Shown piece by piece: positions 1 to 57,687 of a DNA stretch of 64,000 bases (the first letter of the stretch is position 1; every line of letters starts with the position of its first letter). Origin of the DNA: Zygnema cylindricum (lineage: Eukaryota; Streptophyta; Zygnematophyceae; Zygnematales; Zygnemataceae). The stretch spans positions 1-64,000 of the forward strand of contig JBBHKE010002200.1 in NCBI GenBank assembly GCA_037447655.1, read 5' to 3'. The notes under the pieces were generated by a model that worked only from the letters and a program-made list of their open reading frames with translations, did not search any database and had not been told where the DNA came from. Position numbers and translations under genes: made by a program.

Positions 1-104
1 CCCTAAAAAACCCTAAAAAACCCTAAAAAACCCTAAAAAACCCTAAAAAACCCTAAAAAACCCTAAAAACCCTAAAAAAACCCTAAAAAACCCTAAAAAA
101 CCCT
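1..104 (+). repeat. Telomere-like tandem array, 10-bp unit CCCTAAAAAA
   Basis: About ten near-perfect copies of CCCTAAAAAA start at base 1; one unit is 9 bp and one is 11 bp, and the array ends at CCCT before unique sequence. The C-rich strand reads 5'->3' from the left edge, as expected at a left chromosome end. The G-strand unit would be TTTTTTAGGG, longer than the usual plant TTTAGGG. A subtelomeric or internal array is the alternative, because the window edge may not be the chromosome edge. Confidence 0.8.
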
Positions 105-4065: not shown

Positions 4066-4137
4066 AATGATCTAAGCTTTCGTAAATTTCCCAGAGACGT
4101 TGGAATGGGTCCACTTAACTCATTAAAAGATAAATCC
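4066..4137 (-). CDS. Exon 8: 72-nt LRR exon
   Basis: Exactly 72 nt between TGTCTTTCAG and GTGAGT, phase 2 at both ends. It encodes a canonical plant LRR with DLSFNELSGPIPTSLGNL. The good donor implies further exons downstream, but none is recognisable between here and the telomere-like array. Confidence 0.75.
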
Positions 4138-7100
4138 CTGAAAGACAAACCAATGAAACAATATGGTAATAATCATGTTAAGCTCATGCTATCAAATTCC
4201 GTTAGGAACACCTTCTCAATTGAATTCAAATGTGACTCAAGAGAATTCAATATCAGCATTATGGTTTAGCTTCATCAATCGTTGATGCAAAAAAAAATTT
4301 ACTCCACAAACTTTAAAAGGAAGTTGTGCCACGAATTTTTATCACCAACACGTGTTAATATCGCCAATTAAGTAACCAAGCCTATATCTTCACTTACAAC
4401 TCTACAAGAGTATCCAAGAGGCCTATAACTTCCGATATGTTCCCTCTGAAACCAAGTCCTGAGAGTTGCCTGCATCAAAAAACAGGAACCTTTGATAATC
4501 ACTTTATTATTTTTACAAACCATGCATATATTGAGGATCACTGATCAGATAAGCTTGCTAGACAATGAGGGTTTGGAATTAAAAATAGTGGTTAAACATC
4601 CAATCATGCAACATTCATTGGACTCTAAATACTTCCTTTGTTTCAATGTCCTCCAACGGCTCTTTCTCTCAAGATAAAGCCAGGGAGTGCCAACAAGGGT
4701 TCATGTGGTTAGACTACTGGAAATTAAGGGGAACTGCTCTCCATCCCTCCCCCCCCGTTTTTGGGTTGTCAGCCTAAATTCTAGTGTTTCTACTCTATTT
4801 CCATAAGTAGATCCATGACACTCTTATGCTCCTCAGGCAAGCCTTTCATTAATGCCATGGCTTACTGACCATTGAAAAGTCACCTCTTAACTGGTACTGC
4901 ACAAACAGCCTTCGTAAACCATTCAACTTTCAGTTGTGCTACCTTTTTTACACTTATAATCAGAAATAGTAAAAACTATATTAGTCGAATGCTATACATT
5001 TGTTTCACATTTTGGACGATTTTTCATTTGGATATTTGCTACTACCAAGTCTTTTGTCGTCGCCCGCTTGAGAACATTCAAACAATGGGGGTCCTTTTTC
5101 ATCCTACAACTAAAGTATCATGATTCTGTCATTGAGATCCTACTCTTCGAAGTAGCATTGTATCACGTCTGCCCAGTACAAATAGTCTAATCCATCAAAA
5201 TCTGTAGCGCCATCAAAAATCGGCAGAGTTGGGTGTGGTCCCATACCTGTGACTACTGTGATTCTACACTTGCAGAAGCTTCAGACATGATTGCTTACAA
5301 AAGGCAACCAAAAATTGAATTTTGAGAGCAAAGAACTTTATTTGGGTAGATCGGACAATTTCAGTGAAAGAGGGACTTCAAAAATAAGGAAATATAATTC
5401 CAACTCACCTAAAGAGACATGCAAAAACCTCAACCAAGACGAATACGAGAGCACACAGAAGCAGCTCACGAAACTTCCTTTGTCTCTCGAATGTACATTC
5501 TGTCAAGTTTTCTAAGGATTCCTACTCTGTTCATATTTTGTTCTATCCTGGTTTTTCCCAACCTATCAAAGTATCGTGAAGTACACTTTGTACAGCGTGG
5601 TCCAGTATGTTTACCTTATTAGAGACTAAAACTGTCATCTAAGCCATTAGATTTTCACTTTTTGAAATTTTTGAAGTTCGAGTATCGCATTGATATTTAT
5701 TTTCGGCCGTTTGTTTTTTTGTATCCTTTTCAGGTGAAAAGTCGTTTATAGTGTAACTTTTACTTTCAGACTAAATCTGGATAATGATTAACAGTAAACA
5801 CTGGAAATAAAATCTAAGTCATAGCTCTTTCTCACACTCAAGTTAAAACTTACTGAAGCTAAATTTTATAATTAGGAAAATGTGGTCAAGATGTGTTTTC
5901 ACATTTTTTTGGAGCCTAACGTCTAATGTAGGCAGCCAGAGTCAGCCCCTGCTTTCAGATAAACAACAATGAGAATGTATAAGCCCCTCCACCAATTCTA
6001 AGCCTCCATTAGAAGACTAAGTTTTTGAGTTGAAAAAACCCCGGGGGGAGGGGGGGTGTTGCCCTTGGGGGTCCAGTGATTTATTATTATGATCAAAAAG
6101 AACATGTCTTTCGATAGTGTGCTGCCTATAAGTAAACAAGAGGCACAAGATTTTTCAGATCTGGATGAAACGACAATGATGTTTCCTCCTTTGTACAACG
6201 GACTTCTCACGATTCTCTGAATTGAAATGTAACCAGCTTTCCAAAAGACACCAAAGAGGAACACTCGGTGATGCCACATTCAAAGGAAGGCACAGCGGAG
6301 GAAAGTTAGATAATGAATCCGAAGCTTCTATCCATGTGTAGGAGCCGCCATCTCGTTGAGGAGCTCCAAGCCACTCTCGTAACCAAGATCACCTTCGGTG
6401 ATGGTAGGAGTGTGGAACCCAATGCAAAAGGGTTGCACTCTTATTGAATATTGAGGGGAAACCCGTTAAACATTTGTTAGATGATGTATTTCCGGTGCTT
6501 AATTACAAAAGAAAAAATAAATTACCTTCATGATGAAATAAAAGGGTTTACGATTGTTTTGGAAAACGGAAAACAAGTTGTGAGCAATAATGGGATGATA
6601 GTGGGAGTAAGAATTAGGAGAGCCAATTATATACTGAGATGGATCAATCAAAGGATGTAACAAAAAACAAAGTTTTGTACACGAGTGCTATGACTAAATG
6701 TGATCTTTGGCATACGAGGTTAGGACATATGTATTATGGCCAATTTGCAAAGAATGGTTGAGAAGAAAACGATTGAAGAATTCCAAAGTAACAAAGAATT
6801 CAAATTTCAAATGTGATAGATGTTTCCCTTTGTACACGAGTGCTATGACTAAATGTGATCTTTGGCATACGAGGTTAGGACATATGTATTATGGCCAATT
6901 TGCAAAGAATGGTTGAGAAGAAAACGATTGAAGAATTCCAAAGTAACAAAGAATTCAAATTTCAAATGTGATAGATGTTCTTTAGGGAAAATCTATAAAC
7001 TGCCATTTTTGTACGAAGAAAGCCATTGAGCAGCAAATTTCTAAGACACATTCATTTAGATGTTTAGGGACTAACCAAGTTGCCTCTTATAGGAGGGGCT

Positions 7101-10100
7101 ATATATATATATATATATGCATCTACATATATAATATAAATACACCAAATTTACCAAAGTACATTTTATGAAAAGAAATGATGAATCCAGACAAAGTTCA
7201 AGAAGTTTACAGTCTTAAGTGAAAAATTGAATGAAAACATTATACAAACAGTTTGTTCAAATATTGGTGGAGAAAACATCTAAAATGAATTTACATAAAT
7301 TCTTAAGATAAATTGGATTACGCATCAGCTAACAATGAATTTTAAGTTTTGGGTAGAGGCAATAAACTCTGCACCATATGTGAAAAACAAATTAAAGACA
7401 AGGGAAATAAAAGACAAGACACCATATGAATTGTGGACCATGCAGAAAACCAAGGGTATATCATTTTAGAGTATTTCAAAGTCAAATCTTTGTAAATGAT
7501 CTACAAAAATGAAAATTGGAGCTAACAAAAATGATCGACATCCTGCTAGGGTATGATGATCAATGTATAAGATATTTGGGTATATTGGTAGTAAGGAACG
7601 TTAATACAGAGGATGAAGGAAAACAAGGGATGTTTTCAGCTTCCTTTCTGAAAAAAAGGACAAATGAGCAACCGTGCTGGAAAAGGATGTCATTTTTAAT
7701 ACCTATATCTCTACACTTCAGGATACTTCGAAGGACAAAGATCAACCCGGAAGAGACAAAACTGGAGGCCGAAAAGGTCACACACCTTGGAGAAGAACAA
7801 CATTGCCTTCAATACCGGCTACAACTTTTTAAGAAGACAAAGGGTGAATGAACGGCTTAGGGGAGCCAATAGGCCGTGGCAGTTTTAACAATACAAGAGG
7901 ATTTTAACTCAATTAAAAGAGAGCTCTGAGTCACAACAGTGAATAATGAAATGGAGTCAATTATGGAAGCACAAACTTGAGAATTAATAGAGCTTCCCCA
8001 AGGAATTAGAATTAAATGGGTGTTTACAGTGAAAACAAACCCAAACAATACCATATAGAGAGATATGAAGCTAGAATATTAGCAAATGGGTTTAACTAAA
8101 AGGAAGGGATAGACTTTGAAGAAACCTTTTCACCAACTGTTAAATATCCGTCAGCTCTTATTCTTTTTACTCTACATGCCATTGAAGATTTGGACATACA
8201 TTAGATGGATGTTAAAATTGCATTTTTGCGAAGAACTAGACTAAGTGATATACACAAAGCAACCTAAATGTATGGGGAGGTACAAAAAAAGAATCTCGTA
8301 TATCGGTTGGCAAGGTCTTTGTACGGTTTGAAACAACCACCTAGGCAGTGGAACACTAGTTAGATGAGTTTTTGATCAATAAGATTCATTTTTTATAACT
8401 TAGTCTTTGTCATGAAAGGTAACAATCTGGATGAAGTGACTTTTTATTGTTGTATATGTGGATGATCTGTTGAAAATTGGTATGTCTGAAAAGTTTTCAA
8501 AGTAAAAATGGCTTTAAGCTCACACTTTGAGATGAAAGACCTGCGGGAAGCTCACAAAAATTTAGGCATCCAAGGAGAAAGAGAAAGAAAACAAGAAAAC
8601 AGTATTGTTAACAAAAACGAAGGCTATTGGGAATATGCTAGATTATTTTGGAATTACTAATGCAAAATGACATATAACACCTGTAATTTTCAAACACAAA
8701 CTAGAAAAAGAATATGAATTTGGACTAGACGAGAGTTACCGAGTCAGAGGAAAAAGAGATCATGTCACCAATTCCTTGACAGAAGGTAGGCAGCTTGATA
8801 TATTTCGTGAATTGCACTAAGCTTGATATTGTAGCTACAAATAGGATCGTTTACACACCAGCGTGCGCATTACACAAAAAATCACAAGCGGAAGCATACT
8901 CCGATGCTCACAAAAATATTGACGTCACAAATGGTTCAACTCTAGGCCAACTGCACTAATATTAAGAGGAGTCCATTTACTCACACTCTCTCACACACAC
9001 TTCCTCCTTGCAACTTCAGTCAAAGCTTAGAATACAACTCACAGATAGCGGCTGCTAGACCAAAAGAAACCTACCTTATTCCTAAAGGACAAAGTGGCCG
9101 CACTCACCAAAACCATATTAAAAGACAAACAATGTTCCACTAACCAAGACATACATTAACAAAACAAAACCTGCACAGGACAGCTTGTACAGTTTTAACG
9201 CGAAACCAAACAAGCAACGAAAAAATAAACAAAACATACAGAACTGAATTGACGCACTTAACCAAACACTTAACCAGTTCTCACAGTGCCACTCCTAACA
9301 GTCCCCCTCCCTTTGTGTGTATCAACACTAACTATCAAAACGAGCCTAACTTGGGTCAACCCTTGACAAAGACATCATGCATGGCTAATTTGGTAAGCAT
9401 ATCAGCTGCTTCCTCAATAGTAGCTTCAAAACTAACTCTTTATCGCTGACCAAATCCTCCACAAAATGTCACTGAATTTTGAAAGTTGTCCTATTAAGAT
9501 ACACTAGATTCTTTACCTAAGCAATGGAGCTCATTCGGAATAGATTCTAATGCAGCCCACACTATATCCCAATTCATTCAACGTCTCTTTCACCCAAAAT
9601 GATGCCTTGGTCGCATAGCAAACTGCCATGTACCCGGCCTTTGTAGATATTAGGGGCCACAATAGGTTGGAGCATGGAACCCCATGAAATAACAGCTCCA
9701 TAGAAATCTAAAGCGTAACCTGAGGTAGACTTTCCGGAATCAAAATCCCCACCTTAGTCACTATCATAGTAACCATAAAATTCCAAGTCCCACTCGAGTG
9801 GAAGCCAATTCAACACCAAGTGTACCAACCAGGTACCTACAGATTCGCTTGATCGCTTTCCAATGAATCTTCTACGGGAGCGTAACAATAACCGCTGATC
9901 ACAATAACTCAACACAAATATCTGGTCCTGTTCCGACATTAAGGTACATGAGGCAACGACCATCTATTTTACATCTATTGTTTCTCAGGTTTCAAACTTA
10001 CGAAACTAAAATTTCAGATCCAACGGTGTAGACAGTAGTTTGGCATTTGACATAAAATAATTGGCTACACTTCATTACAATATTGTTCTTCACCAAGCTT

Positions 10101-13100
10101 GATACGACCAAAATCATTTCTAAACACCTCAATCCCCAAAATGTATCTTGCCCATTCTATATCAGCAACTGCAAAATGTGACTTTCCAGACCGCCTAACA
10201 CCATTAACACCATTATAAGATCATCCACATAAATTGAAAAGGTAATTTGGTCTTCACCTTCACCCTTCCTAGACCCTTGATTTGGGACGGCTCTCACAAA
10301 ACCAACATTTAAAAAAGCATTACTTAGCCTAAGATACCAAGTCTTGCACGTCTCCTTAAATCTATACAAGGATTTCCACAAATCCACACACTACCAGGTT
10401 TAGCTTTTACCCCCTCCAGGACTTTTCTTGAAGACCTCCTTCTTGAGTTCTCCATTTAGGAAGTTCGTATCCATGCCTTTCAGATGTATATGTTTCTCTG
10501 TGGTCCTTGACAAGGTCACAATCTTCTTCAGAGAATCGATCTTGACCACGGGAGCATTGATCTCCATGTAGGTCACTCCCTCTTTCTGTTGACAACCTTT
10601 ACACACAAGTTTGGCCTTATATTTCATGACCTGACTTGACGAGCGAGTCCTACTTAGCATCGATAGCTTTCGTCCCGAAAGATAAATCTACCTCTTCAAA
10701 CGTTTTTTTATCAAACACTGGCTTATAATCCTCCTCCCAAGTTGGGTTTCTATTTACTTTCCCGATCCGCTCACTCTTTATCTTCAAAAAAAGACTATAA
10801 GTGGTATAACAGGAATCCATCTACTTTAGAATTTGAAAGGAATAGGAGTTACAAATGTTTGCCACCTTTACAATCATGAGATAACCTATGAAGACTCTTT
10901 CCTTTCTTTTCTGTAGTAATCCTACAAAGAACAGTTATATTCTCTTCTTCATTGTCTCTTTCACTCTCTGGTGGTAAACTCGACTTTGGAGTTTGACCTG
11001 AGTCTGATTACTTGACCTAGAACTCATGGTACCATCATCGCTGACCACATTGCCAAAATTTAGACTGTTAGCATCAACCTTAGCCACACAACCAGGTCTG
11101 ACATATTTACCCTTAGTCGTTGATACCTCTTCCTCTTCCAGTTCGAAATTCTCTTAATCTTGGAACTCCTGCACATGGTTTCTCAAAGTCCTAAACCAAT
11201 TCTTCGGAAGATTTCATGACGGAGTCGGGGTCCTTGTGGAACTCCTCATTCCTAGACTGTAGACGAAGATTCTCTTAGGGGTCGAACACATGGTACAGAT
11301 TGTCGTCGATACTCTACCCGACAAAAATCTTTGGATCCCTTTTCCAAATCCTTAGGTGCTAGACAGATGGCACTCTCTCACGTCAACAGGTGTCTTATCC
11401 CAAGAGACTAAAGTTACTCTACGATTGCAAACATAGTTGGCAGTGTATAATGCATCTCCCCACAAATAAATAGCAAACTTGATACTATGGATCATGGCTC
11501 TAACCATCTCTTGCATGGTCATGTTCTTCCTTTTTGAAATTTCATTACACTAATGTAACAAAGACAAATGACAGTGAGTTGCTACCTTATCCCCCTCTTT
11601 TTGCAAAACTCCTTGAAGGCTAGGAACTCTTCTCCATTGTCGAACCTCACTACAACTTTTGTTCAAAATGTCTTTCCACCATAAATACCCATGCCGTAAA
11701 CGTGCTTAAAGTTTCAAACTTTCTCCTCAATAGGAACACCCATTAATTTCCTAGAACAATCCCTACTGTCACCAAGATATACTGATTACCAACCTAGCTT
11801 TTCGGTTTTCCACCACGTAGATCAGCGTGTATAAACTCTTACGGGTACTGAGTTCTAACGTCCTTGACAAGATGAGGTTTTTGAATATATCTATCCTTAC
11901 TTCAACCATTATAACCATCTACCTTTTCACTAGTCATAAGTTCCATCCCTTAGACAGGTGATTTCTTAACCATTCTCTTCACCTCGGAAGTATGACAAGC
12001 TGATTTTTCCATAAGCCCAAGTCTCCTTTCTCCACTCTCAGTTGGTTCACTAAGACCACGGTATGAGCTAATTACGCATACCATCACTAACGAACCTTTC
12101 TTCAACCTGTATTCTAATGGAGTTATATACCACTATGCTTAGATCCTCCATAGTTGTGACCCTGCCTCCACCCTTCCACCCTTTTGAACCTGATGCACGC
12201 TAATAAGGTTCACAGCACCATTATGAATGTACAAGGTGTCGCAAAATCGGGCCTTGGTACTTTCTCTTCACCGTATGTATTTTTAACTAGTGGTTCTAAA
12301 CTGTCGGTTCCATTAGTATCAGCAAGAATGACGTGTCCACTAGTAACAATTATCCTTTTACAGACTATCAACATCTTGATGTCAGCGAATCAACATCTTA
12401 ATGTCAGCGAATAAACCTTTACCAGTACATACATGGTGTGTTGCTCCTACACCTATATCCAATCCCTAACCTTGTTTCCATCACCTACAGGAATCAAAGT
12501 CAAGTCTAATGACATTTCCAAATTTTGGTCTCCGTCATCAAAAACATCTCCAAACTCAGTGACATTACCTTGTTCGCCATCATGATAGGGTCCACGACCT
12601 CATCCCGTTGTCCTCGATCTTGGTTATCTCTGCCATGACATCTGTCATTGTAATAGTTGGGACCACTGCAAACTTGGTTAAAGCATTGAGTACATTTATG
12701 TCTCCAGCGCTGGCATATGTAGCACTGTTTATTCTTGTCTGGACAGACACCTACAATATGTCTTGATTTTTAGCACTCGTAACATGTCAAAAATTGAGGA
12801 TTAGCATCTGATTGACTCTGTGATATACTAGTCTGGCAAGTACCTCTGCCGCCTTTACCAACTGCTTTTCCTCCTACACCTTTTCTCCATTGGAGTGAAT
12901 TTAGATCCGAGGCTTTTTTGCTTACATTAAGATTTCATGTACTCCCTTACCTATTACTCCCTAGAATTCTCAATTGTCTTTAGGTGATTCACCACAAACT
13001 CAAAAGTAGCTTTTCTCTTCGATTGAATAACCTCAGGAGAGGTTGCAAACCTCTTTGTTAGACTACCCAAAAACACCTGCAACTTTCCATTCTTTGGTAG

Positions 13101-16100
13101 AACTCTACCGAGACTAGTTAGATGCTCTACCAAACCCTAAAAAACCCTAAAAACCCCAAAAAAATCCCAAAAATTGGGAGGCAGATAAAAGGGTTCTCAG
13201 ATATCTTGTTGAAACTAGAAATCTATGGTTCACACAGAGAGGGGACAAGGTCCACATAAGTACATGTCGTGATGCATGTCATGGGGATGTTCCCAGTAGA
13301 ACGTCCACCAAAGGGTATGTTATCTAGATTGGGCAAGGAACCTGATGCTGGAGTAGCAAGCTCTAAAAGGTCACAGCTCAATCTAAAACGGAAGCTGAAT
13401 ACATGGCTGCCATGTGGCAGTCAAAGAACTACTGTGGAGGAAAGCATTCCTCCAAGAGTGAAGGGCTCTTGCAACAGGGAACTCAGATCATGTGGTTTGA
13501 GAATCAAGCAACCATATCAGCGGCCACCAACCCATCTCACCACTTTAAGAGCAAGCACATGGGCATAAGGTTGTATTTTGGACAAGAGAAAGATTTTCAA
13601 AGATCATCAAACTCAGCTTTCTACTTGATGAGAAAATAATTGCCGATTAGCTTTCCCAGCCCCTAATTTGGATTAACGTCGGTATGCATGTGGTCTCAGT
13701 GAGTAAATCTTCTAAGGCTTAAGGGGAGCACTGTAGAAGTAAACTTTAGTAAGTTTTCGATTGAGTGAGATAGAGCTAGGCACTATAATTTAGTTGGACT
13801 ACCTATTGCTAACTTCTAACCAGACTTAGTGTGAAAGTAGGAAGTACAATTATAAACTATTTTCACGTGAAAGGACAGAAACAAACAAACGGCCGCAAAT
13901 GAATATCGACGTGAAACTCGTATTCTGGAAATTCCGGGAAACGAAATTATAATGGCTTGGATTAAAGGGACCTGTTTTGTCCAGTAAGGAAATTCCAGGT
14001 ACAGCTTAAAAAAACCTCCGAGACCACACTGTACAAAGTGTTCTTCACGATTCTCTAGTAAGTAAGGAAAAACCGGGAAAGGATAGAATATAAATTGAGT
14101 CTGAATTTCCCGAAAAAATAAGAGAATGTACATTTCGGAGACAGAGTAAAATGTTGCACCAAGTGCTGTCTGAAGGAACATCTGTGAGGTGCTTTTGCGT
14201 GCCGTTGTATCTGTATTAGCTGATATTTTTGCATGTTTGTTTAGCTGAGTGGAAATCACTACCATATAATTTCAGGTCCCTCTTTCACTTAGATAGTTAG
14301 ACCTGGCAGCATAAAGTTGTCTGTTTGCAATTCAAATTTGGGTGACTTTCTATAAGGAATTACGTCTGGAGATTTTGCAAGTGCTACACAAGAATCACAG
14401 GAATTACATTTCTATGATCTTTTAGAATTTATTGAACGAAGAAGCGAGTGTCTTCCCATTCTTCAGTCCACTCCGGGCAGACGCCACAATAAGTTTGCTT
14501 GAATTCTGGGGGGAAGTACAGCAAATTTGGTCAAGTGTAAAGAAAAAAATTGAAGTTATGTCTTCAAAAACTACGAGATGTAGTGATTTACAAAGTTTGA
14601 ATAATGGGAGACATAAAAATTTTGTGACGGGGAAGAACTACATTAGAGAGGAAATGAGGCGCAAGTAATCATGAAACATTTTGAGAGATTGTTAAATTAG
14701 TATTTGTTTTTTTCCATAAAGGCGTTAGCTTCATTATCAATGGTTCGGATTTCAAATTTATAGAAATTCGTTATTATAATTCATGCAGGATGCATATTAT
14801 ATCCACTAAAAATTAAATACACATACAATTTGATTACAATCTTGTTCTCGCAAACTACTCGAAGCCAGCTGCACACTTCCTTTGAAGATTTCCATGTTGA
14901 AAGTCTGTTAGATTGGTCGATCAGCCCATCTTTGAGTTGCAGCAAAATGCTTCCTGGTCCCACATCATCCATTAAAAATCTTCAATATACCTCCTTGTTC
15001 ATTCGCTAAGAGCTCTTTACTTGCATTGCTATGAAAATTTCGCCATTTTTTGGCAGGACATAAATACAACTATAGCTGTGGAAATTTCTGACATGATGGT
15101 CATCATGCTAACCATGATCCGAAAAACTAGACATTTATAATTTAACATAGAGTATCATTGATATGATTATAATAAAAGGTTAAAAAATAACAGGTTCCTA
15201 TGTGTAATAGACTGATACCTATTTTTTTTTCCAAATTGTCACCTGTTTGATGTTATACTCTTCATCTATAGAAGCGATCCAAATCGTCACTCGATCTTTT
15301 TCCAGCGATATTATATCCTTCTATTTTAAGTTTTCATTGAATGGTGTGTGCAATGTATGTTTTTTTAAATGGTCCGGGCCGTCGATAAAGTTCTCTTTTA
15401 GTATGTTAACATTTTTTTTTTAATAAATTAAAACAGGTTTTCCATCCGTCATCATTAGAAAACTATGACAATGCGCAGGAGATTTCAACGAACCCTGACG
15501 ACTGAAGCATACATACTCACTGCAGTTTTTTCTATCTTGGTTTCAAAAAAAAAAGAGAATAAGAATGTGCATAATTTTAATTGGAACAACTAGACACTTG
15601 TCGATTTGAATTGATTTTGGCTGATATCCGTTTGTTTAGAGTACTAGTTAAAATTAAAATGGGAAAGGTGCAAAATGTGGTGGAAAATGAGAAGGTTGGT
15701 GGCATATAAGAACATGAAAAATCGGAAAGTTAGAACTTAGAATAAATAAATGAAACCAACAAAATAACTAAAGTGAGGGCGGAGGGGGTGAAGGGAGAGT
15801 AGGTACTACGAGCTAAGAAATGATAGAATAACCTATTACCTGGTGTTGATGGTGGTGGTGGCGAACTTTGAGGAAGAGGACTCCATGAAGAAGGTGGAGG
15901 ATTTGGAGGAGGTGAAGAAGGTTGAAACTTTGGTGGGTTGGGAGGTGAGGAGGGAGGTGGTCGGGGAGGTTGCTTAGGGGGGGGTGGAGGAGGGCGGCGG
16001 GGAGGCGGTCTAGAAAGGGGGGGAGGACGAGGGGTTGGTGAAAGAAGAGAGGAAGGAGGGGGCGAATAAAAGGTTGAAGGGGTTGGAGGGGGGGGAGGAG

Positions 16101-19100
16101 AGGAGAGAGGAGGCGGAGACGGAGGAGAGACACGAGAGGGAGGAGGGGCCGGGGAAGGGGGTGGAGAAGAGGAAGAAGGGGGCGGAGATTGGGGCGGTGG
16201 TGACTGCGACACTACAAAAAAATGAAAGAAGAAGCCCCATCGTCAGGCAAGCCATGTCTTACCACATGAACATCAATGCTTTCCAGAATGTGGAATTCTT
16301 TGAAGGTCCATTAGTGGCAAGCAATTTATTGTTTTGAAAACCATTTTTCTGTTGCAATCATTTCGAGGCAAGGTTGGAGGATTGAGAATGGGAGGAAGAT
16401 ACATAAAGGAAAAGAACTACGTGGAGAAGATAGGGGTAACAAGCTGAAGGGGAGGATAACATGGAGTTGTCGATGGCGTAGTTGATGAGGGATGTGAGAG
16501 AATAGGATTGGGGGTGGAGAGTGGACGACTTTGGGAAAAACAAGGTACAGAATATGCCGGTAATTTCTTATGTACATGTTTGAATCAACTCCCTATTTCG
16601 TCAAACAAACAGAATCTTTGAAATTTCAATACGGAAATCAATGTAAGATTTTGTTTCGACGAGACTAGTTCACTCCACGCGTTTCAGCTTAAAAAACTCG
16701 TAATCAACCTAGTTTACACTAAGTTACAAGTACCATAAGTGTGTATTTCAGAGAATTCGTCATAAAATATAGTCTGAATTGTTTCATGTCAGATTCTGTG
16801 TTGTGTATACCTCTATTATAACATACATATTGCTGTAGGTTTTATGCAATTGACAACTAATAATCACTATATAGCAACATCCAAAACAAATATGTTTAAC
16901 GTATTAATTCTATGCATTTAACTTTTGGTCATCTACCAATTCTAAAAGGAAAAACATGACGACAAGCTTTGCACCTAATTAGGGTTTTTTTGGATTTTTA
17001 TTATTCAAACATAATTTTTTATTCATTTCTGTTTTTTATAAACATATACAGTGTTAGATAAGAATTTGTTTTTTGACGAAAGTCAAGTTTGCCTTTGCGT
17101 TGACATTCTGTTTTATGAGCTCTTTGACTTTCACTCGCTTAGCTGTCATGATCTTATTGGGCTACACATTGTTGAATGCTTGTCCAAACCAGGTAACTCA
17201 TTTATCTGTGGATTAACGAACCTCTTCAGATATTAAAAAGAGAAAATCGGTTAAGAAATTTGATCAACTGGCCTTCTAAAAAAAATTATTGCACGTTAAT
17301 CACAAATTGAAATCCAGTATATTTCTAGAAAAAAAACGACCATATGTAACTCGTGTATAAAAGTGAAAAGAAAATGAAAACAAAAAAAAAATGATATGGG
17401 GGACATTCCGTACATGCGAGTAGTTTCATATTTTCTACCTTTTCTCAGACCCCTTCCAATGTCAGCAATGCCTCCTCAACTCTTCCATGTTACCCCACGC
17501 AATTGCCTATCTAAACGAGATATACTCTCTCCAACATGAAATTTTACATAAAGGTTTGCGTTTGATGAAGAGATGGTGTTTTTTGATTGTTGAATGCGCT
17601 ATTCGCGCTTGGAAAATTTGTGACAGATATCACTGAGGTTTGGTGAATCAACACGTGAACTAGAAATGAAAAGTACAATAGTAGCGTGATGGTCAAGCCA
17701 AAGGACCAGATTTTTAAAATTATGATGCATACTTTAGAAAAGTACAAAAATTGCACAACAAGTTAAACAACAGTACGATTGCTTTAACTTAGATTGCAGG
17801 AAAGTACGATACAAATATTATAACTTAAAACATAGGAAATTCAGCTTTGTTTTACAATTTCAGGTTGATGGTTGTTAAGCAAATGTGATCATTAAGATCT
17901 TGCACCACAACTTTAAGATTCGTTGACCAATCAATTGTTTGAACAAGTGCGCTTCCATTTTCACTACAATTAGAGGAGGCACAGAAAGCTAGTGCATTAC
18001 ATACAACGACTAGCAAAAATATTGTGATTTACCTATGATCGAATTGCAATCGCTAGAGGAAACAGAAGCTATTCACATGCTTTCGAATGGGTTCAATACT
18101 ACCTGGGAAATTGCTGTCAAAGCTCCAAGATTGAATCCCATGAATGTCGACGCAGTCACTAGTTCCGGCGGAGAATCCAAGGTATGCCAGAGTAACTGTT
18201 TGGCACGTGGCGCAGGCAGATGGCCTCAACAACTCGCAAAGAGATTTCCTGTATGTAAGCAAAGGCGTTGGTGGCTTTGAATTCTGTTTGCTGATATACA
18301 CTTGCAAACTTTGACGTGTGCCATCATACTCCACCCATGCGTACTTGATGGAGAGACTGAAATCATCCAGAATAGTAGTTGTATTGTATACCACAGGCGC
18401 AAAAGCAAATTTTTCACGTATTCCCACGTATCTTCCAGGAGGATCGTAGCTGTTTCTCTTCGTGTCAAAGATAATGCTCACACTCCCCACAACAGGCTGA
18501 CCTGTGTACTGCAGTGCAAGTGCTTCACCTGATCCTCTCAATTTGGAAAAGTCAATGTTTGACCCAAGAATGGTGAAGGCAATGCCGTCGCCATGGCACA
18601 GTTTCTTGTTGCTGGAGATGCTGAAAGAGAACTGCGCGTTGAATGAAGCTGGTTGACACCCGCCAGTGCCACTATCTCGGAGAAGAGGGACCAGATTCCG
18701 ATAAAATGCTTGTCCAGCGTTGAAATAACTAGCCGGTGTAAGTTGAAGTCGGGGGTATACGAGTTGAGATGATCCACTTAAGGTAAAAAATGTAGATGAA
18801 TTGAAATCCGCAAATGAAAACGCAGTGTAACCTGGTGGATGACGTTTGGAAATTGGATAAGAAAAATACAGATAGAAACATATATGGCATTGTACAGCCA
18901 TATAGCCAAAAACATAATCTATCACAGATTCAGCTCTTGATACTATTACCATGGGTACAGGTTTCCACACAATATCTGGTAGGGCTCAGCACTTGGGGAT
19001 GTGTGTTTCTTTGACTAGACGTGAATTTAAACAGCAAAATACAGACAAGTGGGACAAAGCTTTAGCAGATTTTTTTCCTTCTCAATCTCATAAATAACAG

Positions 19101-22100
19101 TGTGAGACAAAATCAAACATAGGTAACGAAATACCGTTTTGTTTGGTTCATTCATGACGATGAGACACTAAATTTTGACATTCAAAACGAATGAACTGCA
19201 ATGAACATTATAGGAAAGAGCAATTTTGTAAAACAAATCCAACCATACTACAAGTTTTATAATATAAACCATAGGAAAGTAAAACTTTGTGCTGCAAGTT
19301 GGAGTTTGATTTGATATGAATTGAATATAGGTAAATGTTGAAGTTGGCATAAAGTTATTTTGGCGGAGAGATTTTTACTGTGACAATTTAATCGATAAAC
19401 TAATTGTGACGCTTGCAATGCGTAGTTTAAAGTGTTGTGCACACGCCTAATATTGTCGTTCGCGCAGAGCAGCTCACTTAGTGCGAAAGAAATGAAGTTA
19501 CACGACAAGGAAAAATTGTAGAAACTTCTTTCAAGATAATTCTTGAGAGTGAAATCATTATTAAGGGTAATTTATGCTTGTCCTACTCTAGGGTATTTCA
19601 CCTGAATTTTACGTCCCGTTACATTCATTTATTTGTCACTCGCCTGAATTTGCATGTACGGCTCTATTAGTCTATTTTTTCAAGAATGTCTCTGTTTGCA
19701 TCTATTTACTTACGCGCGTACTACAGTACCTTTTGTCTTTTGTGCACTACTGTTATTTTGCTCTATTACAAAAGATTAGATCCATTACTTCGATTTGGTT
19801 CCACGTATCTTTTGTTGTTCACTGCCCAGCGATAGTCGTAACATCAGATTTACGGATCTTCGAGTACAATGCATTTAAAGCGCACGATAAAATCCACACT
19901 AATTAGTATTGTGCGACTTTGTATAAAAGGATCTCTTCGAAGATCAAAAGAGTAAACTTTTTCAATCATCAAATGGGTTGAAAAGAAACAAATTTTCGCT
20001 CCTCCTACACAATAGCCTACAAAACCAGGTTTTCAAGGGAAAAGGTGCACATAAAGCCGCATTTCTTGCACCTATTCTGCCTGTAATCAAACCCTAATAC
20101 CAATCAACTCAACAAGATTCACGTTTTTTTTTCCGTACTAAACAAAGAATCAACACGGACTTAACCATTTACAATATGTAACATCTAAAATAAGAAACAC
20201 TACACCAGATCCCCATGTTTCTTACAAATCAAGTCAATATATACAGCAAGCTGGCAATTTTGACAGCCTGTCACGAGCATGGTGGATTCTAATAGTGACT
20301 AGGTTATCTGAACTCTACTATCTTGTTATGTACTCCTTAGATGGATATTTCAAATAATCTGATTATGGTGCGAATGCCCCGTTTACTGTGATTGACTTCT
20401 TTGCTAAACAAAATCCAACCAGCCCCTCGGAGTCAACCAAATAACCATCACATTTCGGCCCCATTAGGCCACTTTTCGGACCATTACAGGACCGATTACC
20501 CACTAAAGTTCAGATTTATGCCATTTTATTCGGAGCAGGGATTTATAAACGACCTAGTCATTGAAAGCTGGTCGTCATGTCTACCAATCATACTAAAGGA
20601 AACATAGCGCTGTTTCAATACGAAGAAAGCTAAACAAATGACTCAGCGATCAGTGTTGACATTTGCCTATCGCTACCTGTGAGCGGAAGGACGAAAGCGG
20701 TGAAAGGAAGCTAAAGGACCAATAGCTGTCCAAAAGCTAATTAACTTTTGCACAATCTAATTAAATCACATATTTTGCATGATTAGTTATTTTGGAAAAA
20801 TATTCATCACTTTTTATAACAAAGGAGTCAAAAAGAAACATATGATGCTCCGGAGCGAAGAGATACAACAAACGAACCACAAACAAAGTACTGGACCGAA
20901 ATTAGTGATTGAGAGAATCAATAGAAGAAGTCCGATGCATAGTAAACAAAACACTTACTTGGATTTTTCGTGTACAAATACCCAAAGCCCACTGTTAACC
21001 AAGCTGATCTATCGGCATTCGACTTTATCCAACATTTTGTTTCATTTTGAATCCTAAAGCCTGCACAGGTGCAGTCGTCTGCGCACTTGCTTTGGCATTC
21101 CGCCACGCTCGCATCGTAATAGGCGATGTCGTTTCCGGCCACGTCCGTGTTGGCGTAAGGCGTGTAGGCGTACAGAACATCCTTGCACGCTTGGCCATCT
21201 GCATGGTCAAATGGATCCGGGTGACAAATTGTTTAATATATGCTTCAGTCTAAATGGAAAGAAAGGAAATAAACATAGAAGTACGAAATGTAGCTTTTAC
21301 ATCGCGCCACTACCATATTTCTAAATCAATCCCCCCCCAGTTGGACTTTACATTTTTTTAATTTTGCGTACCATATAGCTAAGAATTCACGGGAAAAACT
21401 ACTCAAAATAATAGCAGTAGACATTCAGATCAAAACGAGAAATATTAATTAAAACACAAACGTCAGGAGGAATCGCCCTTTGCAACTGCTGACGTGTTGG
21501 AAAGTTTACCTTTTGCCATTCACTATCCTGTCCTTACTTAAAGCAGATTAAATGCGGGAAATGATGAACGCATGCGATGACGTGATGGATTACGATCAAT
21601 TTCTGTGATAGCGACAAGAAAATAGTTGAGCCTGTCTGCTCACATTCACTTGATATTGCATCTTCCAACTCACCATAGCCATAAACACGGACTTCGCAGA
21701 GTGAGAGTATTCTATTTGGACCACTTAGGCGTACCCAAACGTATCGCCCGGAGCTCAAGCATGTCTTTGTAAAGGGTCGTGCAGCCCCGGATCCATTGTA
21801 ATAATTGGCAGAGTCGCACTCTTTGTTTCCGTCCCTATCCCACCTTCGTTTGCTTGTTCCCACCCATACTTGAACCCCAATCATTCTTTCCAGACAACAG
21901 TTTACCCGGGCCCATAGCTCCACATTCTCAATTTGTGAGGATTTCCCGAGGTCCACCATCCACCAGGGGTCAGTTTCGCCATCATTGGTTGTCGCATTCA
22001 AATAGGTGTGTGAACAGCTGCCGCCGCTGAAAACTCCATTCACATCGCCGTCAACTGCAAAGTTTGCTGGATAGCGGACTCCACGACTGGCAAACGTGCT

Positions 22101-24210
22101 GCTCTGGTACGCGGGACGGCCCATGGCGTAATTTACTAGAAGAAAAACCACAAAGATTGTCGCTCTCAGGCACTCAAACAAAAACAACTGCTACATGACG
22201 GCTTCGACACCATGAACAGATAAACAAAACGATAGCGATAGCAGAAATACACTTGAGAAGAAGATATTACAATTGAGCGAGAATTGGTTTCATATCTTAC
22301 TCAACAGTCAATCACCAAGAATCAAATTTAACTGGATCAAATTCGAGAGAAAAATATCAAAGAACATGAGATGAAGATTTTAATCAAAATCTAGGCCCTC
22401 TAAATCAAGCCAGAAACTATTTTTGTCCCGTATACTCTGCTCTTTAACCCCTGCCTGCTGCAGGATGCTAAGGCTGCTAGCTACAAGCTGTTAAACTTCT
22501 GTGGTCAATAATTACAACAGAAATAGACATCCTCACATGGTTTAGTTTCTAGAACAGGCTAACGGAGCAATGGGATTACTACACGTTGTTTTGACAACAA
22601 TAGAAGCATGGAACACCATCAGTAGCTAGTAGAATAACGAGCTTTTTAGATTCGAGTGCCATTAATTCGAATTTAGGTTCGAGCAATGTGGACGGAAATT
22701 GTATGATTACCAAATGAAGGTTAAGAACGTAGAAACTAGTGGTACTAATGCTATCTTATGGCCAGAGGCCAAACAACCGGCGTTCATATAGTGTCTGTAA
22801 CCCTAATAGCAACTCTCTGGGCACTTCAACACCAACGACAAAACATCAAATGTGTTTAAACGTACAGTGTGCTCTGTGCACTCTGTTGGAAAGACAACAA
22901 CTTCCTTTCCAACAATAACAGACCGCATGACATCCATCTGAAGATCATGTAGGACAAAGAAACCTTGAAATAAAGGAGCACACTTGCCATAATGTTATGG
23001 GTCTTATGTCGTGTTATTACATCAAGGTTGCCCGAGTTTCAAATCAAATGGACAGGATTTGTTAGAATCACTTTGTCATTGACGTGTCATCTCCATTAGT
23101 TAGGGACCAGGGCTATGGACATCGTTAATCTGCTTTGAACATACTACAAAAAAGTTAACAAAATGGTATTTCATACTGATTTTTCTGTCAAAAGGGGTAA
23201 AAAACAAGTGCCTGTCAAAAATGAAAATGATCTCTAGAGATTTGAAAACAGAATATACAACACCGTGAATCGCTGTTAGTGTATTTTAGTGTAAAGAAAG
23301 AAAAATTGTTACTAACGTTATTTTGGGTTCATAAACTTAAACCTAACAAAAAATTAACGATAATTAACACACATCTCACTTATTTATGTACATATTCCCG
23401 TAGTGTAGCCGCTGTAACCTGTATTTACAAAGCCAACGTTTGAGCATGTGAGAACAGGTTTGAGCGTTTTTTTCTCGTGATAAATCCTAAAAGTCAAATC
23501 TACGTGCGCTTTCCCGTGTCGACGCCGTTGCCTGTCACTTTTTTTGTACTTCTGTATGAATTAATGAGCATTTTTTATAGGGGACCCACACATTTCGTAC
23601 ACTACACTATTTATATACCTCTTGAAGCTTTTATGCTTTTGATAGAGGAATGCTCTCCTATGACCATAATCACACAGTGCTGGTTTTCGTACGAGCCGAA
23701 AAAAATGGTGATGCCAATAGCCAAGGTTGGACTTTGAACACGATACTTCGTTGGGCGTCTCATCGATCTTAAGTTACTTGAGACAATGCAATTATAGTTG
23801 GGTTATAAGATTTTTGTCAATGTCAGCACCTCTAAGATTCCATTGGTAAAAAAAAATATAAAATAAAAGTATAATTGACACAACTGGGAATAAATTATTG
23901 AGCATACGATTATTGACCGTTGATATACTACATAACATCATCAAATCTATGCAAATAACAAAAATAATCATCTGAAACGGGAATTGGCTAAATTTGAGAA
24001 CATTAAAAGTTGATTGAACGAGGACTTTGGGTTAAGGGGCTTACCTGGAATAGTTGCGAGGTAGGCTTTTGGGAACACTCGGCTGAACGTTGGATCATAT
24101 TTTTGTGAAGGCGGCGCGACACACCGTACTCCCAAAACGAAAACATAGAGCATAAAGAAAGAAATCGCACATGGAATGATTTGTGTGGATGAGCCACCAA
24201 CCATGCCCAT
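4066..24210 (-). CDS. Multi-domain secreted lectin-PAN-LRR protein gene (eight exons, 3' end not found)
   Basis: Eight minus-strand exons join in one frame: 24210-24045, 22135-21674, 21198-20959, 18831-18103, 16211-15840, 14953-14827, 4469-4398 and 4137-4066, giving 2240 nt or about 746 codons. Order: signal peptide (residues 1-~30), F-type lectin (~56-209), PAN/apple (~210-289), L-type lectin (~290-532), Pro-rich linker (~533-656), LRR N-cap (~657-698) and two 24-residue LRRs. All junctions before the LRR cap are phase 1, so each domain is a removable module; later ones are phase 2, as in plant LRR genes. The large introns contain copia debris. Likely role, inferred: extracellular carbohydrate recognition, perhaps the ectodomain of a receptor. 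No stop, transmembrane or kinase exon was found before the left end, so the gene may be truncated. It could also be two adjacent genes split in the 10-kb intron between exons 6 and 7. Confidence 0.7.
4398..4469 (-). CDS. Exon 7: 72-nt LRR exon
   Basis: Exactly 72 nt between TTTTGATGCAG and GTAAGT, phase 2 at both ends. It encodes one 24-residue repeat with an LSGLGFRGNISEVIGLLDTL pattern. The single-nt start completes a Leu codon begun by the TT left by exon 6. Length and phase match plant LRR receptor genes. Confidence 0.7.
4690..5275 (-). pseudogene. Retrotransposon gag scrap (minus)
   Basis: Minus-strand translations give a LPIFDGATDFDGLDYLYWAD block near 5150-5235 and MALMKGLPEEHKSVMDLLM near 4805-4860. 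Both resemble LTR-retrotransposon Gag segments. Stops and indels separate them. It lies within the long intron between exons 6 and 7 of the lectin-LRR gene. Confidence 0.5.
5300..5740 (+). repeat. Dispersed repeat copy 1 (paired with 13860-14300)
   Basis: The segment with AATGTACATTCT near 5490, TTCTATCCTGGTTTTTCC near 5540 and CACTTTGTACAG near 5586 is clearly related, in opposite orientation, to 13860-14300. A shorter relative of the GTACAAAG segment sits on the minus strand near 6190-6230. The family is unknown; similarity extends over non-coding positions, which argues for a transposon. Confidence 0.55.
5741..6359. other. No gene recognised
   Basis: Intronic sequence of the lectin-LRR gene with a short G-run near 6040-6057 and a possible scrap of the dispersed repeat. 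A minus-strand frame at 6279-5998 has no recognisable domain. Confidence 0.4.
6674..6979 (+). repeat. Exact tandem duplication, ~151-bp unit, period 155
   Basis: The stretch 6674-6824, carrying the copia pre-integrase motif, is repeated at 6829-6979 with no differences seen. The copy restores neither frame nor function. Its near-identity in an otherwise decayed element means it is recent, or an assembly duplication. Confidence 0.85.
7098..7120. repeat. Short (AT)n microsatellite
   Basis: About ten AT units inside copia remnant B. Confidence 0.8.
8840..9300 (-). mobile_element. Probable 3' LTR of copia element C
   Basis: On the minus strand the purine tract CAAAGGGAGGGGGAC (9301-9315) is followed at 9300 by TGTTAGGAG, a copia-type LTR start resembling the TGTTAGGAT of element D. 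The far end near 8840 is a guess, because no partner LTR survives. Confidence 0.55.
8840..13131 (-). mobile_element. Decayed Ty1/copia element C (minus strand, 5' end missing)
   Basis: Read on the minus strand the order is gag, zinc knuckles, integrase, RT, RNase H and 3' LTR. Gag near 12960-13125 resembles that of the intact element at 57688. Two CCHC knuckles lie near 12690-12790, with a stop inside the first. The integrase block FDNGEEF is near 11620. RT blocks are VKIDSLKK and FLNGELKKE near 10450-10560 and YVDDLI near 10215. The RNase H GYYDSD block is near 9755-9775. It belongs to the same lineage as element D but is full of stops. The 5' LTR and gag N-terminus are cut off at ~13132 by telomere-like sequence. 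It lies sense within the long intron of the lectin-LRR gene. Confidence 0.85.
13132..13178 (+). repeat. Interstitial telomere-like tract
   Basis: AAACCCTAAAAAACCCTAAA and degenerate CCCCAAAAAAA / TCCCAAAAA units follow the broken gag end of copia element C. The unit is the same 10-mer as at base 1. On the other side a plus-strand copia RNase H scrap begins. Confidence 0.75.
13180..13731 (+). pseudogene. Copia RNase H remnant (plus strand)
   Basis: Broken frames give an RYLVETRNLWF block, SKTEAEYMAAMWQSKNY near 13385-13430 and ENQATISAATN...SKHMGIRLYF near 13498-13580. These are the RNase H and C-terminal segments of copia pol. A purine tract AAGGGGAGCA (13721-13730) and TGTAGAAG at 13732 suggest a following 3' LTR. 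Opposite orientation to element C. Confidence 0.75.
13732..13860 (+). mobile_element. Possible LTR start after the RNase H remnant
   Basis: TGTAGAAGTAAAC follows a polypurine tract. The downstream end is not definable and the dispersed repeat copy 2 begins near 13860. Confidence 0.35.
13860..14310 (-). repeat. Dispersed repeat copy 2 (paired with 5300-5740)
   Basis: The minus strand shares GTGAAAGAGGGAC, AATGTACATTCT, TTCTATCCT and CACTTTGTACAG blocks in the same order as 5300-5740. An open frame here (14265-13816) is not conserved in the other copy and is not considered a gene. Confidence 0.55.
14311..14826. other. No recognised feature
   Basis: Intronic sequence downstream of the LRR N-cap exon. 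A short plus-strand frame at 14432-14668 has no recognisable domain. Confidence 0.4.
14827..14953 (-). CDS. Exon 6: LRR N-terminal cap (LRRNT_2-like)
   Basis: It encodes about 42 residues with the plant LRR N-cap pattern: ILLQLKDGL, then SNRLSTW, then a CSWLRVVCEN block with the paired cysteines, and a VIKL ending where the first repeat starts. The acceptor GGGACCAG gives phase 1 entry and the donor GTATGT gives phase 2 exit, exactly the change expected where an LRR array begins. Exon length is 127 nt. Confidence 0.75.
14954..15839. other. Intron 5 of the lectin-LRR gene
   Basis: AT-rich with T-runs. No exon or mobile element recognised. Confidence 0.5.
15840..16211 (-). CDS. Exon 5: proline-rich (extensin-like) linker
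   Basis: It encodes 124 residues that are mostly Pro and Ser in SPPP and PPPPP runs, as in hydroxyproline-rich cell-wall proteins and pherophorin hinges. The acceptor is a strong polypyrimidine run ending TTTTTTGTAG and the donor is CACCAG|GTAATA. Both ends are phase 1, matching the exons on either side. It is probably a glycosylated extended hinge between the lectin fold and the LRR cap. The strand is fixed by splice signals; the opposite strand has only low-complexity Arg/Glu-rich frames. Confidence 0.75.
16212..18102. other. Intron 4 of the lectin-LRR gene
   Basis: AT-rich sequence with no recognisable coding exon on either strand. Additional small exons with phase 1 ends cannot be excluded. 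Confidence 0.45.
18103..18831 (-). CDS. Exon 4: L-type (legume) lectin domain
   Basis: It encodes 243 residues covering a whole legume-lectin fold: TAFSFADF start, LQLTPAS, AGQAFYRN, AQFSFSIS, a CHGDGIAF block carrying the conserved Asp, IIFDTKRNSYDP, a WVEYDGTRQSLQVYIS block, YLGFSAGT and the terminal IQSWSFDS. In the metal-site motif the usual Glu before FDT is Ile and the usual His after the DP segment is Tyr, so metal and sugar binding may be altered. The acceptor is CATCCACCAG and the donor is CCAG|GTAGTA; both are phase 1. Extra Cys pairs such as CATC are not typical of soluble legume lectins. Confidence 0.85.
18832..20958. other. Intron 3 of the lectin-LRR gene
   Basis: No domain-bearing exon recognised. 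A relatively GC-richer patch near 20400-20600 has open frames but no recognisable motif. Confidence 0.45.
20959..21198 (-). CDS. Exon 3: PAN/apple domain
   Basis: It encodes about 80 residues with six or more cysteines in the PAN/apple arrangement: an early GQAC, NTDVAGND, then a SVAECQSKCADDCTCAGF-type core and KCWIKS. PAN/apple modules mediate protein or carbohydrate contacts outside the cell and occur in plant G-type lectin receptor kinases. The acceptor is ATGCAG and the donor is CCAA|GTAAGT; both are phase 1. An upstream in-frame TAA near 21230 shows that the exon cannot begin much earlier. The acceptor's pyrimidine tract is weak. Confidence 0.8.
21674..22135 (-). CDS. Exon 2: F-type (fucolectin) lectin domain
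   Basis: It encodes about 153 residues with the F-type lectin/discoidin-like pattern: an N-terminal RPAYQSSTF block, NFAVDGD, a GGSCSHT block, PWWMVDLG, an ARVNCCLERM block, VQVWVG and a C-terminal LCEVRVYGY. F-type lectins bind fucose through a His and two basic residues; the His in CSHT and the Arg in ARVNCC are present. The usual DCC-type pair reads NCC here. The acceptor TTTTTCTTCTAG precedes the exon and the donor is G|GTGAGT. Both ends are phase 1. A Met codon at 22187 lies inside the upstream intron and was not used as a start. Confidence 0.85.
22136..24044. other. Intron 1 of the lectin-LRR gene
   Basis: Mostly unrecognised. Near 23255-23290 it contains one degenerate end of the CACCG...TTAGCG inverted-repeat element family. 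Confidence 0.45.
24045..24210 (-). CDS. Exon 1: start codon and signal peptide of the lectin-LRR gene
   Basis: The ATG at 24210 opens a peptide with a hydrophobic core (IIPCAISFFMLYVFVLGV, about residues 11-28) followed by RC and a polar stretch, which fits a secretory signal peptide. A second Met at residue 3 is an equally possible start. The exon ends at CCAG|GTAAGC with one base left over (phase 1). That base joins exon 2 to give a Val codon. Codon 1 is chosen because it is the first Met in this open frame; there is no transcript support. Confidence 0.65.
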
Positions 24211-40494: not shown

Positions 40495-41888
40495 CTAAGA
40501 AGGTGAAATAGAATGCCAATTTTTGTGAGCACTAATGAGAGCCGATAACAGGCCGGCTCCGGCAAGCATCGCTGGTCTCGCTAGAGGACCTTTCCCCTCC
40601 CATATGTCGTTAAGGGCTAACAAACCATCAGCGAAATCCTGAACCACAGACAGCGTTTTTAGGAACTTCTTAAATTGAACAGCTTGAAGTTTTCTCAAAG
40701 TCTTCTCCCTTTCCTCAACATTAATCTGACCTTCACCATTTCTCTGCAAATCAGTCAAAAGCTTAGCCTCTGTCTCCATAAGGGAAAGTATATGAAGGGA
40801 CTTTAGGGCGACTGAACCAAAGTAGCCGATGAATTCCGCCCAGGCACTTATCTTTTGAAGCTTGTCGCTGTGGTGCTTGTCAATGGCTCCAGCTTTCACC
40901 TGTTGGAAACAGAACAGTGTCGCAGGTCAACGGACTGAAATGCACATCAGTACACCGTGCACCCGCTGTTAGCATGATGGTTTTCCCGCCCAAGTGATGA
41001 AAAAAACATTGACGCTAACTGCGATGCGCGTTGGTGCCATAAACCGACAAAAACCAGCATTTGCTTGTGATGAGAAATCTACCGCACTCCAGTGAAGATG
41101 CACAATTGGCAAAAACTCACACACTACTAACTCCCAAACGGCCCAGAAAACTGGATGAAACTAAACTGAGGCTTGTCATAACCATGGAATTTTTCATGAA
41201 CCTGTAGTTCATAGGAGTACATTCTCACTGTTTCAGAAAAAAATTGCATTCCCCTCCATGGAAAAAAAAAAAAACTATTTAAACCAAATAAAAGCCAGCA
41301 ACCGTTGATGGTCAAAAAGAAATGTCACTGTTGTATGTGAAGAACTTTTCAAGACTTTAACAAACACTGATGACGTCAGACTTTAAAACTGGCATTAGAA
41401 ATTAGCCCTCTAGCCGATTTTTCTTTTCCTTCGTGAAGAAAAAAAAAAAGCTCAACTGAAGGGTAAACAAAGAAATAAATACAAAAACAGGGAAATAAAA
41501 CTAAGGACCTTACCAGCCACACAAACTGCTCCACGAAATAATACACACCCTCCCCTGTGGTCGCCACTAGTTCCAAAAGTCCTTCGGTTGTCGTTAGCGA
41601 CGTTCTGCGCAGCGTGTTCACATTCTGCAGAAACTTCCCGAGCCGATACGCCTTCCGACTGGCGCCCACGCTGGACTCGAAACTCCTCAGCTTCTGCGCG
41701 ATATCCGTTTTGGATTCCCGCAGAGCCAGCGCAAGAGCTAGTTTGGCCGAATACCGACAAATCTTGAGGGTTTTGTCGATACCATCCCTTTTCTGCAGAA
41801 ATGCGACTGTTTGATCGAGAGTGTCCGCTCGATGGCTGCCTTTGCTCATAGCGAATACGACGGTGCAAGTTGCAGCAGCCTCGTTCAA
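40495..41888 (-). CDS. PEX11: PEX11 family peroxisomal membrane protein (two exons)
   Basis: Exon 1 is 41888-41514 and exon 2 is 40899-40495, 780 nt including the stop, or 259 residues, the usual plant PEX11 size. PEX11 proteins sit in the peroxisome membrane and drive its elongation before division. Exon 1 has the family N-terminus: TLDQTVAFLQKRDGIDKTLK, then ALALRESKTD, then LRSFESSVGASRKAYRLGKF. Exon 2 has the C-terminal block: LSVVQDFADGLLALND, then an ARPAMLAGAGLLSALIS segment and AHKNW. The donor CTG|GTAAGG and acceptor CCAACAG|GTG are both phase 0. Start choice: the first Met is at 41888; a Met at residue 14 (41849) is the alternative and gives an N-terminus more like plant homologues. 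No disruption is seen, so it looks functional. Confidence 0.88.
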
Positions 41889-42737
41889 GTCCTGCTAACG
41901 ACCTGCGAATCGATGGTCCCTCCGGAAATAGCGAAGGTTACGGCCTGGCAAGGGAGATAGATGATTCATCGATTCTTTTCTCCGAGGGTTCTCCGGCTGG
42001 GGACAACATAGCCAGGGTGACGGTTGCAAGTCCACGTGGCGTAAAAAGGAGGCCCCTCTCCACATTTATCTAAGATCGACAAGGGAAATACTGACGTGGC
42101 AGAAGATGTCACAAATCCTTTAGGTAGGTGTACGGTATCGTTCACGCTTCCGTTCGGTATCGAACTACAGCACTGTACTGCAACTTTCGACTATACAGTA
42201 CGGAACGAAAAATCGCATCTCTGGCAGGATGGTGCCGATTATGACATTGCTGGCAAGTAATGTAGCCCATCCTTCCAATTTCCACGTGGTTGTCCTACCA
42301 TCGCACGACGATCCGTTACGATCGAAAACGCTTCTTTAAATAATTTATAATTTTTTTGTTTTAAAATCGAACGTTCACGCTGTACAAACAAAAAAAACAT
42401 TAGAAAAATATAACCACAGACGAGAAAAGTAGAACAAAAAGGCACAGAACTAAAATGAAAGGTTTTTCTACATTAAAATTGAAATTGGATGCACACGACC
42501 AAACTCCTCCATTATTTGAGTTGAACTCCCTTTGGGCGTTTATGCGTGTAGCGGTCGCGATCACTTACGTGTGACACAACACAATAGACCTCGACATCAT
42601 TGGGGAAGAACAAAGGTGAGTTTGTTTGAGAAACTCTTATAAAAGTTTTGTGATGGTTTAGTCCTCTTTTTGACGTTTTTTGTCGGTTGTGTCGCTAACG
42701 ACATTCGTATTATTGGCCCGTCCGACACGGTTGTTCC
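41889..42737. other. PEX11 upstream region; nothing else recognised
   Basis: Should contain the PEX11 promoter on the minus strand, but I see no clear TATA element near the start. The rest has no recognised domain. Confidence 0.4.
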
Positions 42738-57649: not shown

Positions 57650-57651
57650 AT

Positions 57652-57663
57652 TGGTATCGGAGC
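57652..57663 (+). promoter_or_regulatory. Primer-binding site of element D
   Basis: TGGTATCGGAGC differs by one base from TGGTATCAGAGC, the site complementary to initiator Met tRNA used by most plant copia elements. It lies 2 bp after the LTR. Confidence 0.85.
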
Positions 57664-57687
57664 GGGTTACTGGCAACATTTGCCGGT

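Follow-up and report, generated by a model that had tools for sequence, protein, structure and literature searches.

The question raised by this locus is what sort of protein would join two kinds of lectin to leucine-rich repeats (LRRs) in an alga, and how such a gene came to be put together. The window, as the whole 64,000-nucleotide stretch of Zygnema DNA will be called here, is C1657:1-64000, and the genome searched along with it comprises 352.8 Mb in 2689 contigs. The initial annotation had read a minus-strand gene at one end of the window as a surface receptor or secreted factor with two different sugar-binding folds, assembled by exon shuffling.

When the eight minus-strand exons (24210-4066; Table 1) are joined, they give one open frame of 746 codons with 0 stops. 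All seven introns are GT-AG, with phases 1,1,1,1,1,2,2: phase 1 for the five from the signal peptide as far as the LRR cap, and phase 2 for the two within the LRR part. Recomputing the joins reproduced exactly what had been proposed for the four modules after the signal peptide, with lengths of 462, 240, 729 and 372 nt and phase 1-1 ends. The one frame carries, in this order, a signal peptide, an F-type lectin, a PAN-like module, an L-type lectin, a Pro-rich hinge, an LRR cap and two plant-type LRRs. The contig begins at window base 1, about 4 kb past exon 8, so the gene lacks its 3' end here, and the two LRRs are unlikely to be its complete LRR domain. A short array of TTTTTTAGGG-like units lies at the contig end (window 1-100, minus strand) and is possibly the cause of the assembly stop.

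Table 1. Coordinates of the exons and of two other features of the window.
Feature	Window position	Strand	Description
Exon 1	24210-24045, 166 nt	-	ATG and signal peptide, phase 1 end; hydrophobic core from signal-peptide scan; 166 nt in C1586 too
Exon 2	22135-21674, 462 nt	-	F-type lectin (F5/8 type C), phase 1-1; Pfam PF22633, 3cqo, 1k12
Exon 3	21198-20959, 240 nt	-	PAN/apple-like, phase 1-1; weak PAN_1 below cut-off, conserved in paralogs
Exon 4	18831-18103, 729 nt	-	L-type (legume) lectin, phase 1-1; Lectin_legB, Wisteria agglutinin
Exon 5	16211-15840, 372 nt	-	Pro-rich hinge, phase 1-1; 762 nt in copy C1586
Exon 6	14953-14827, 127 nt	-	LRR N-terminal cap (LRRNT_2), phase 1 to 2; PF08263; C1586 counterpart 62300-62426
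Exon 7	4469-4398, 72 nt	-	Plant-type LRR, phase 2-2; plant LRR-RLK ectodomain match, kept in C1586
Exon 8	4137-4066, 72 nt	-	Plant-type LRR, phase 2-2; last exon found before contig end
Insert, ~10 kb	4768-14741		Exon 6-7 intron; absent from C1586; decayed copia-like pieces, minus strand (ORFs by eye)
PEX11 gene, two exons	40495-41894	-	Pfam and protein search

Using Pfam on the spliced protein, Lectin_legB was matched at 2.5e-30 (106.2 bits against a cut-off of 26.3), identifying the L-type lectin, with F5_F8_type_C_2 at 1.9e-12 and LRRNT_2 at 5.6e-7. PAN_1 stayed below its cut-off (7.5e-4, 19.7 against 21.4 bits), and a similar Cys-rich module is present in the paralogs; LRR_1 reached only 17.8 bits in the whole protein (0.0029; cut-off 20.6) and 23.3 bits in a 90-aa LRR piece. 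These matches reproduce the module order given by the initial annotation, weakly so for PAN. Among solved structures, exon 2 matches FBP32 (3cqo, 1.1e-30) and the lectin 1k12 (3.8e-11), which we take to be eel agglutinin, as an F-type lectin should; exon 4 matches legume lectins such as Wisteria agglutinin (3.2e-8); and the LRR part, with its LRRNT_2 cap and plant-type repeats, matches plant receptor ectodomains such as those of GSO1 and ERL1. No kinase match was found within the 746 codons and no membrane helix was noticed there beyond the signal peptide, the latter judged without a predictor; window 1-26000 gave no papain match.

In exon 4, compared with the Wisteria lectin, the metal site has Ile for Glu and Tyr for His and keeps the Asp of FDT; by eye, that Glu and His occur in none of 14 aligned L rows, which represent 13 different exons. 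The roles of these two residues have been taken from concanavalin A. The fucose motif of F-type lectins is given as H-X24-R-X-D-X4-basic (PMC5712786); exon 2 resembles animal, bacterial and algal F-type lectins in its sequence, its His-Arg-Arg triad and its adjacent cysteines (CC), but the spacing is 33, not 24, and Asn replaces the acidic Asp. The full triad, read by eye, is present in 3 of the 8 aligned F rows. Since the fucose motif departs from the published one at one residue and in its spacing, and two residues of the L-type metal site are missing, the protein may bind sugars differently or not at all. Judged by the F-type and Lectin_legB sequence matches, the claim of two sugar-binding folds is right, with an L-type metal site that looks altered.

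The neighbouring PEX11 gene bears on the source of the DNA. Among the best 120 of 467 protein matches, ordered by E-value, a contig protein at 84% identity comes first, followed by one from Mesotaenium (57%), a further one at 58% and one from Spirogloea (55%), the names Mesotaenium and Spirogloea being our reading of the identifiers. Identity is 57% with Closterium NIES-67, on which ground Closterium was set aside as the source, and up to 58% with liverworts and mosses. The source is therefore most likely a zygnematophycean alga, which bears out the algal, plant-lineage origin suggested at the outset. Two further features lie on the plus strand of the window. At 57643-62346 there is a copia-like element, recognized by eye, in which a single stop separates two long neighbouring ORFs (1049 and 517 codons). 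The ORF at 62891-63427 begins SPPP-rich, contains Cys towards its C-terminus and has no Pfam match.

A second copy of the gene, on contig C1586, has kept the full set of eight exons together with their splice sites and phases, and reads open over 876 codons; this conservation makes the window gene more than a chance arrangement. Exon 2 is 100% identical between the two copies (0 of 153 codons differ), and intron identity is 95.6-97.5% up to the hinge, 91.7% just past it, 87.6% between the LRRs and 69% beyond. The C1586 hinge exon (L031, C1586:61114-61875) is 762 nt long against 372, a difference of 390 nt that keeps the frame. Part of these extra 390 nt is out of the Pro-rich phase, and it is after this exon that identity between the copies drops. 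The two LRR caps differ by 20.7 nonsynonymous and 5.3 synonymous differences, small numbers that could reflect diversifying or relaxed selection. The cap and the first LRR are 0.4 kb apart in C1586 against a 10-kb intron in the window, so most of that intron is an insert; a repeat search of the insert showed no clear LTRs. Two identical 151-nt direct repeats lie inside it (window 6674-6979). In C1586 the second LRR is followed by a copia-like piece and then the contig end, so that the 3' end is off both contigs, and repeat-like sequence follows the second LRR in both copies.

Matches across the genome number at least 83 for Lectin_legB, 48 for F5/8 and 89 for LRRNT_2. Eleven paralog regions, taken from the best-scoring L-type matches, were examined; since they were chosen in this way, the proportions that follow are not genome-wide ones. 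The F-PAN-L order is found in 5 of the 11, with F-PAN present twice in two regions and L twice in three, and 5 of the 11 have a complete papain exon set (four pieces) after L. Further on, a PAN exon of another kind and an EGF-like exon are present in four of the five papain regions, and a LysM-like exon in three. The paralog exons are 32-77% identical to those of the window over the aligned pieces, and their ends largely coincide: the same phase-1 GT donors are present for F in 7/7, PAN in 8/9 and L in 16/16 of those assessed, and the same phase-1 AG acceptors in 6/7, 7/9 and 11/15, respectively, three of the four L misses being exons at 33-39% identity. Between the window gene and its paralogs, dN/dS is 0.36-0.52 for F (7 exons), 0.39-0.54 for L (11) and 0.36-0.66 for PAN (5), with maxima over all pairs used of 1.04, 0.77 and 0.97 for F, L and PAN; selection on these exons is purifying on average but loose. 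(The calculation leaves out the 39% identical L024 exon, L001, which is the L009 exon, and the PAN copies of L015 (two), L021_1668 and L028_1671; the medians omit 1 of 28 F pairs and 1 of 66 L pairs, which the dS filter removed.) The window gene is a member of a multigene family in which phase 1-1 exons have been duplicated and differently combined between genes. The modules are phase-1 bounded and recur in other contexts or copy numbers, as class 1-1 exon shuffling implies; the exon shuffling put forward by the initial annotation is upheld by the phase 1-1 exons and by the duplicated F-PAN and L modules.

By eye, an L match has an LRRNT match on its own strand no more than about 3.2 kb away on at least five contigs (C1657, C1586, C2140, C535 and C2550). 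Among the matches listed, C1657 and C1586 are the only contigs where F is near LRRNT on one strand. Two of the three L-LRR relatives, C535 and C2140, were examined; in both, L (as two exons), an LRR cap, LRR exons and papain follow on one strand. C535 has all four papain pieces and an EGF-like exon (by eye), and the examined stretch of C2140 stops within papain. Their LRR caps, the only ones compared, match that of the window at 22/43 residues in C535 and at 31% in C2140. The papain of C2027 has the Cys, His and Asn motifs of such proteases. The region L014 (C569:112500-122499) runs F-PAN-F-PAN-L-L, then papain, PAN, two EGF-like and LysM-like exons; in C569 the PAN is above the Pfam cut-off, the EGF matches are below it (18.4 and 20.7 against 21.5 bits), and the LysM-like label was given by eye, Pfam giving 12.0 bits against a cut-off of 20.9 in one exon and nothing in the other. 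In C1687 and C2415, Pro-rich sequence follows L and Pfam found no papain. The region L020 (C1687:33000-42999) has an open SPPP-rich frame of 1451 codons after its L exon, which is perhaps a wall-anchoring tail.

Compared with the papain (C1A) genes of the same genome (C1824, C2027, C569, C2586, C535 and C2140), the window gene shares either the F-PAN-L or the L-LRR modules, and the ends and phases of the F, PAN and L exons compared mostly agree. It differs in having a Pro-rich hinge between L and LRR, and in that its protease part is not seen; C535 and C2140 differ further in having an intron-split L domain and no F match among those listed.

Our preferred reading, to which we give a probability of about 60%, is that class 1-1 exon shuffling put this gene together in a zygnematophycean alga, and that the product is a secreted mosaic protein, lectin-guided and probably proteolytic. 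The relatives in the genome suggest a protease end rather than a receptor kinase. By analogy with those that run from L through LRRs to papain, the missing 3' end would contribute a papain-like cysteine protease along with further LRRs and perhaps an EGF-like exon. The product would be secreted, its signal peptide being predicted from hydrophobicity; the lectin head, if it binds sugars, would dock the protein on glycans of the wall, of the mucilage or of another cell, the Pro-rich hinge would give reach, and the LRRs would contact a protein that the protease might then cleave. Counting against a papain end, no papain follows the L exon in the stretches of C1687 and C2415 scanned, the C2140 cap shares only 31% of its residues with that of the window, and LRRNT_2 modules are also typical of plant LRR receptor-like kinases (LRR-RLKs).

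That point leads to the strongest of the alternatives, which we still regard as unlikely: a cell-surface receptor, LRR-RLK or LRR-RLP, with an unusual double-lectin N-terminus; a transmembrane helix, further LRRs and possibly a kinase would then be encoded in the missing 3' end. The LRRNT_2 cap and the 72-nt LRR exons match LRR-RLK ectodomains such as those of GSO1 and ERL1, Lectin_legB with kinase has been described in Zygnema (PMC11096116), and an LRR-RLP, CpRLP1, acts in Closterium mating (PMC5736609). Against it, both L-LRR relatives examined continue into papain, and Pfam listed no kinase family in the six stretches scanned beyond the L exon, each of 10 kb or less, so that a kinase further on would be missed. 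(In a tblastn search with the lectin-kinase protein P0011, L001-L028 matched the lectin part only, at E up to 1e-3.) The module order, the 1-1 exons, the shuffling and the plant lineage proposed by the initial annotation have stood; its surface receptor has not, given the 746 codons with neither kinase nor any noticed membrane helix and relatives that lead to a papain-like protease or a Pro-rich stretch.

Considerably less probable is that the lectin part stops at the hinge and forms a separate protein, whether secreted, attached to the wall or anchored in the membrane. Read-through past 15840 adds 35 codons with a hydrophobic tail and then a stop, with frame and stop at the same place in both copies. 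By eye, however, 9 of these 35 residues differ between the copies, against 0 of 153 codons in exon 2, and both copies conserve the hinge splice donor and the LRR-cap acceptor; the read-through form could be an isoform. A stand-alone LRR gene was also looked for: no signal-peptide exon with a phase-1 donor lies between 15839 and 14953 in either copy, in a scan whose control recovered the real one. This, together with the single 0.4-kb intron between cap and first LRR in C1586, makes separate lectin and LRR genes, the outcome named beforehand as fatal to the gene model, unlikely. Least probable of all is a decaying, transposon-broken gene that is no longer expressed, as might be thought from the 10-kb insert in one intron, the repeat-like sequence after the second LRR in both copies and the many nonsynonymous differences in the LRR cap, since neither copy, of 746 or 876 codons, has a stop, frameshift or splice-site loss, and even the 390-nt hinge difference is in frame.

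Parts of such a secreted, lectin-guided protein have counterparts elsewhere. A C1A peptidase with LysM occurs in early plant lineages and was not retained in vascular plants, and in these lineages lectin domains are also known joined to a C1A protease or to EGF-like domains (PMC6362431); the LysM-C1A peptidase resembles our proposal in joining a sugar-binding domain to a C1A protease, with no F-type, L-type or LRR named in the available text of that source. With plant L-type lectin receptor kinases the window gene has the legume lectin domain in common, and with LRR-RLKs the LRRNT_2 cap and plant LRRs; it differs in joining both kinds of ectodomain, with no kinase in the part present. F-type domains are known in green algae, with none identified in higher plants according to PMC5712786. 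The Lectin_legB proteins of Zygnema, reported in "26 different combination architectures", resemble the window gene in combining a legume lectin with many other domains (PMC11096116). The architecture seen here may already be among those 26; the main text of that paper nowhere uses the terms "F5_F8", "discoidin" or "apple". No published description of this domain order was found by title or opening abstract, a weak negative, and none of 24 distinct database matches (13 + 19; P0001-P0024) had both F5/8 and Lectin_legB in one protein, which is also weak since Zygnema proteins are possibly outside the protein library.

The surprising part is to meet class 1-1 shuffling in an organism that is not an animal. 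A review that treats the shuffling of such exons as metazoan asks why exon shuffling is restricted to the Metazoa and why the modules are class 1-1 (PMC8001218). We would tentatively suggest, at somewhat less than even odds, that this zygnematophycean alga has a class 1-1 shuffling system of its own, independent of that of animals, which makes a fast-changing family of lectin-guided proteases for cell-surface recognition; its modules would be F-type lectin, PAN, L-type lectin, Pro-rich hinge, LRR, EGF-like and LysM-like, often arranged around a papain-like protease, and the window gene would be the member that joins both kinds of lectin to LRRs.
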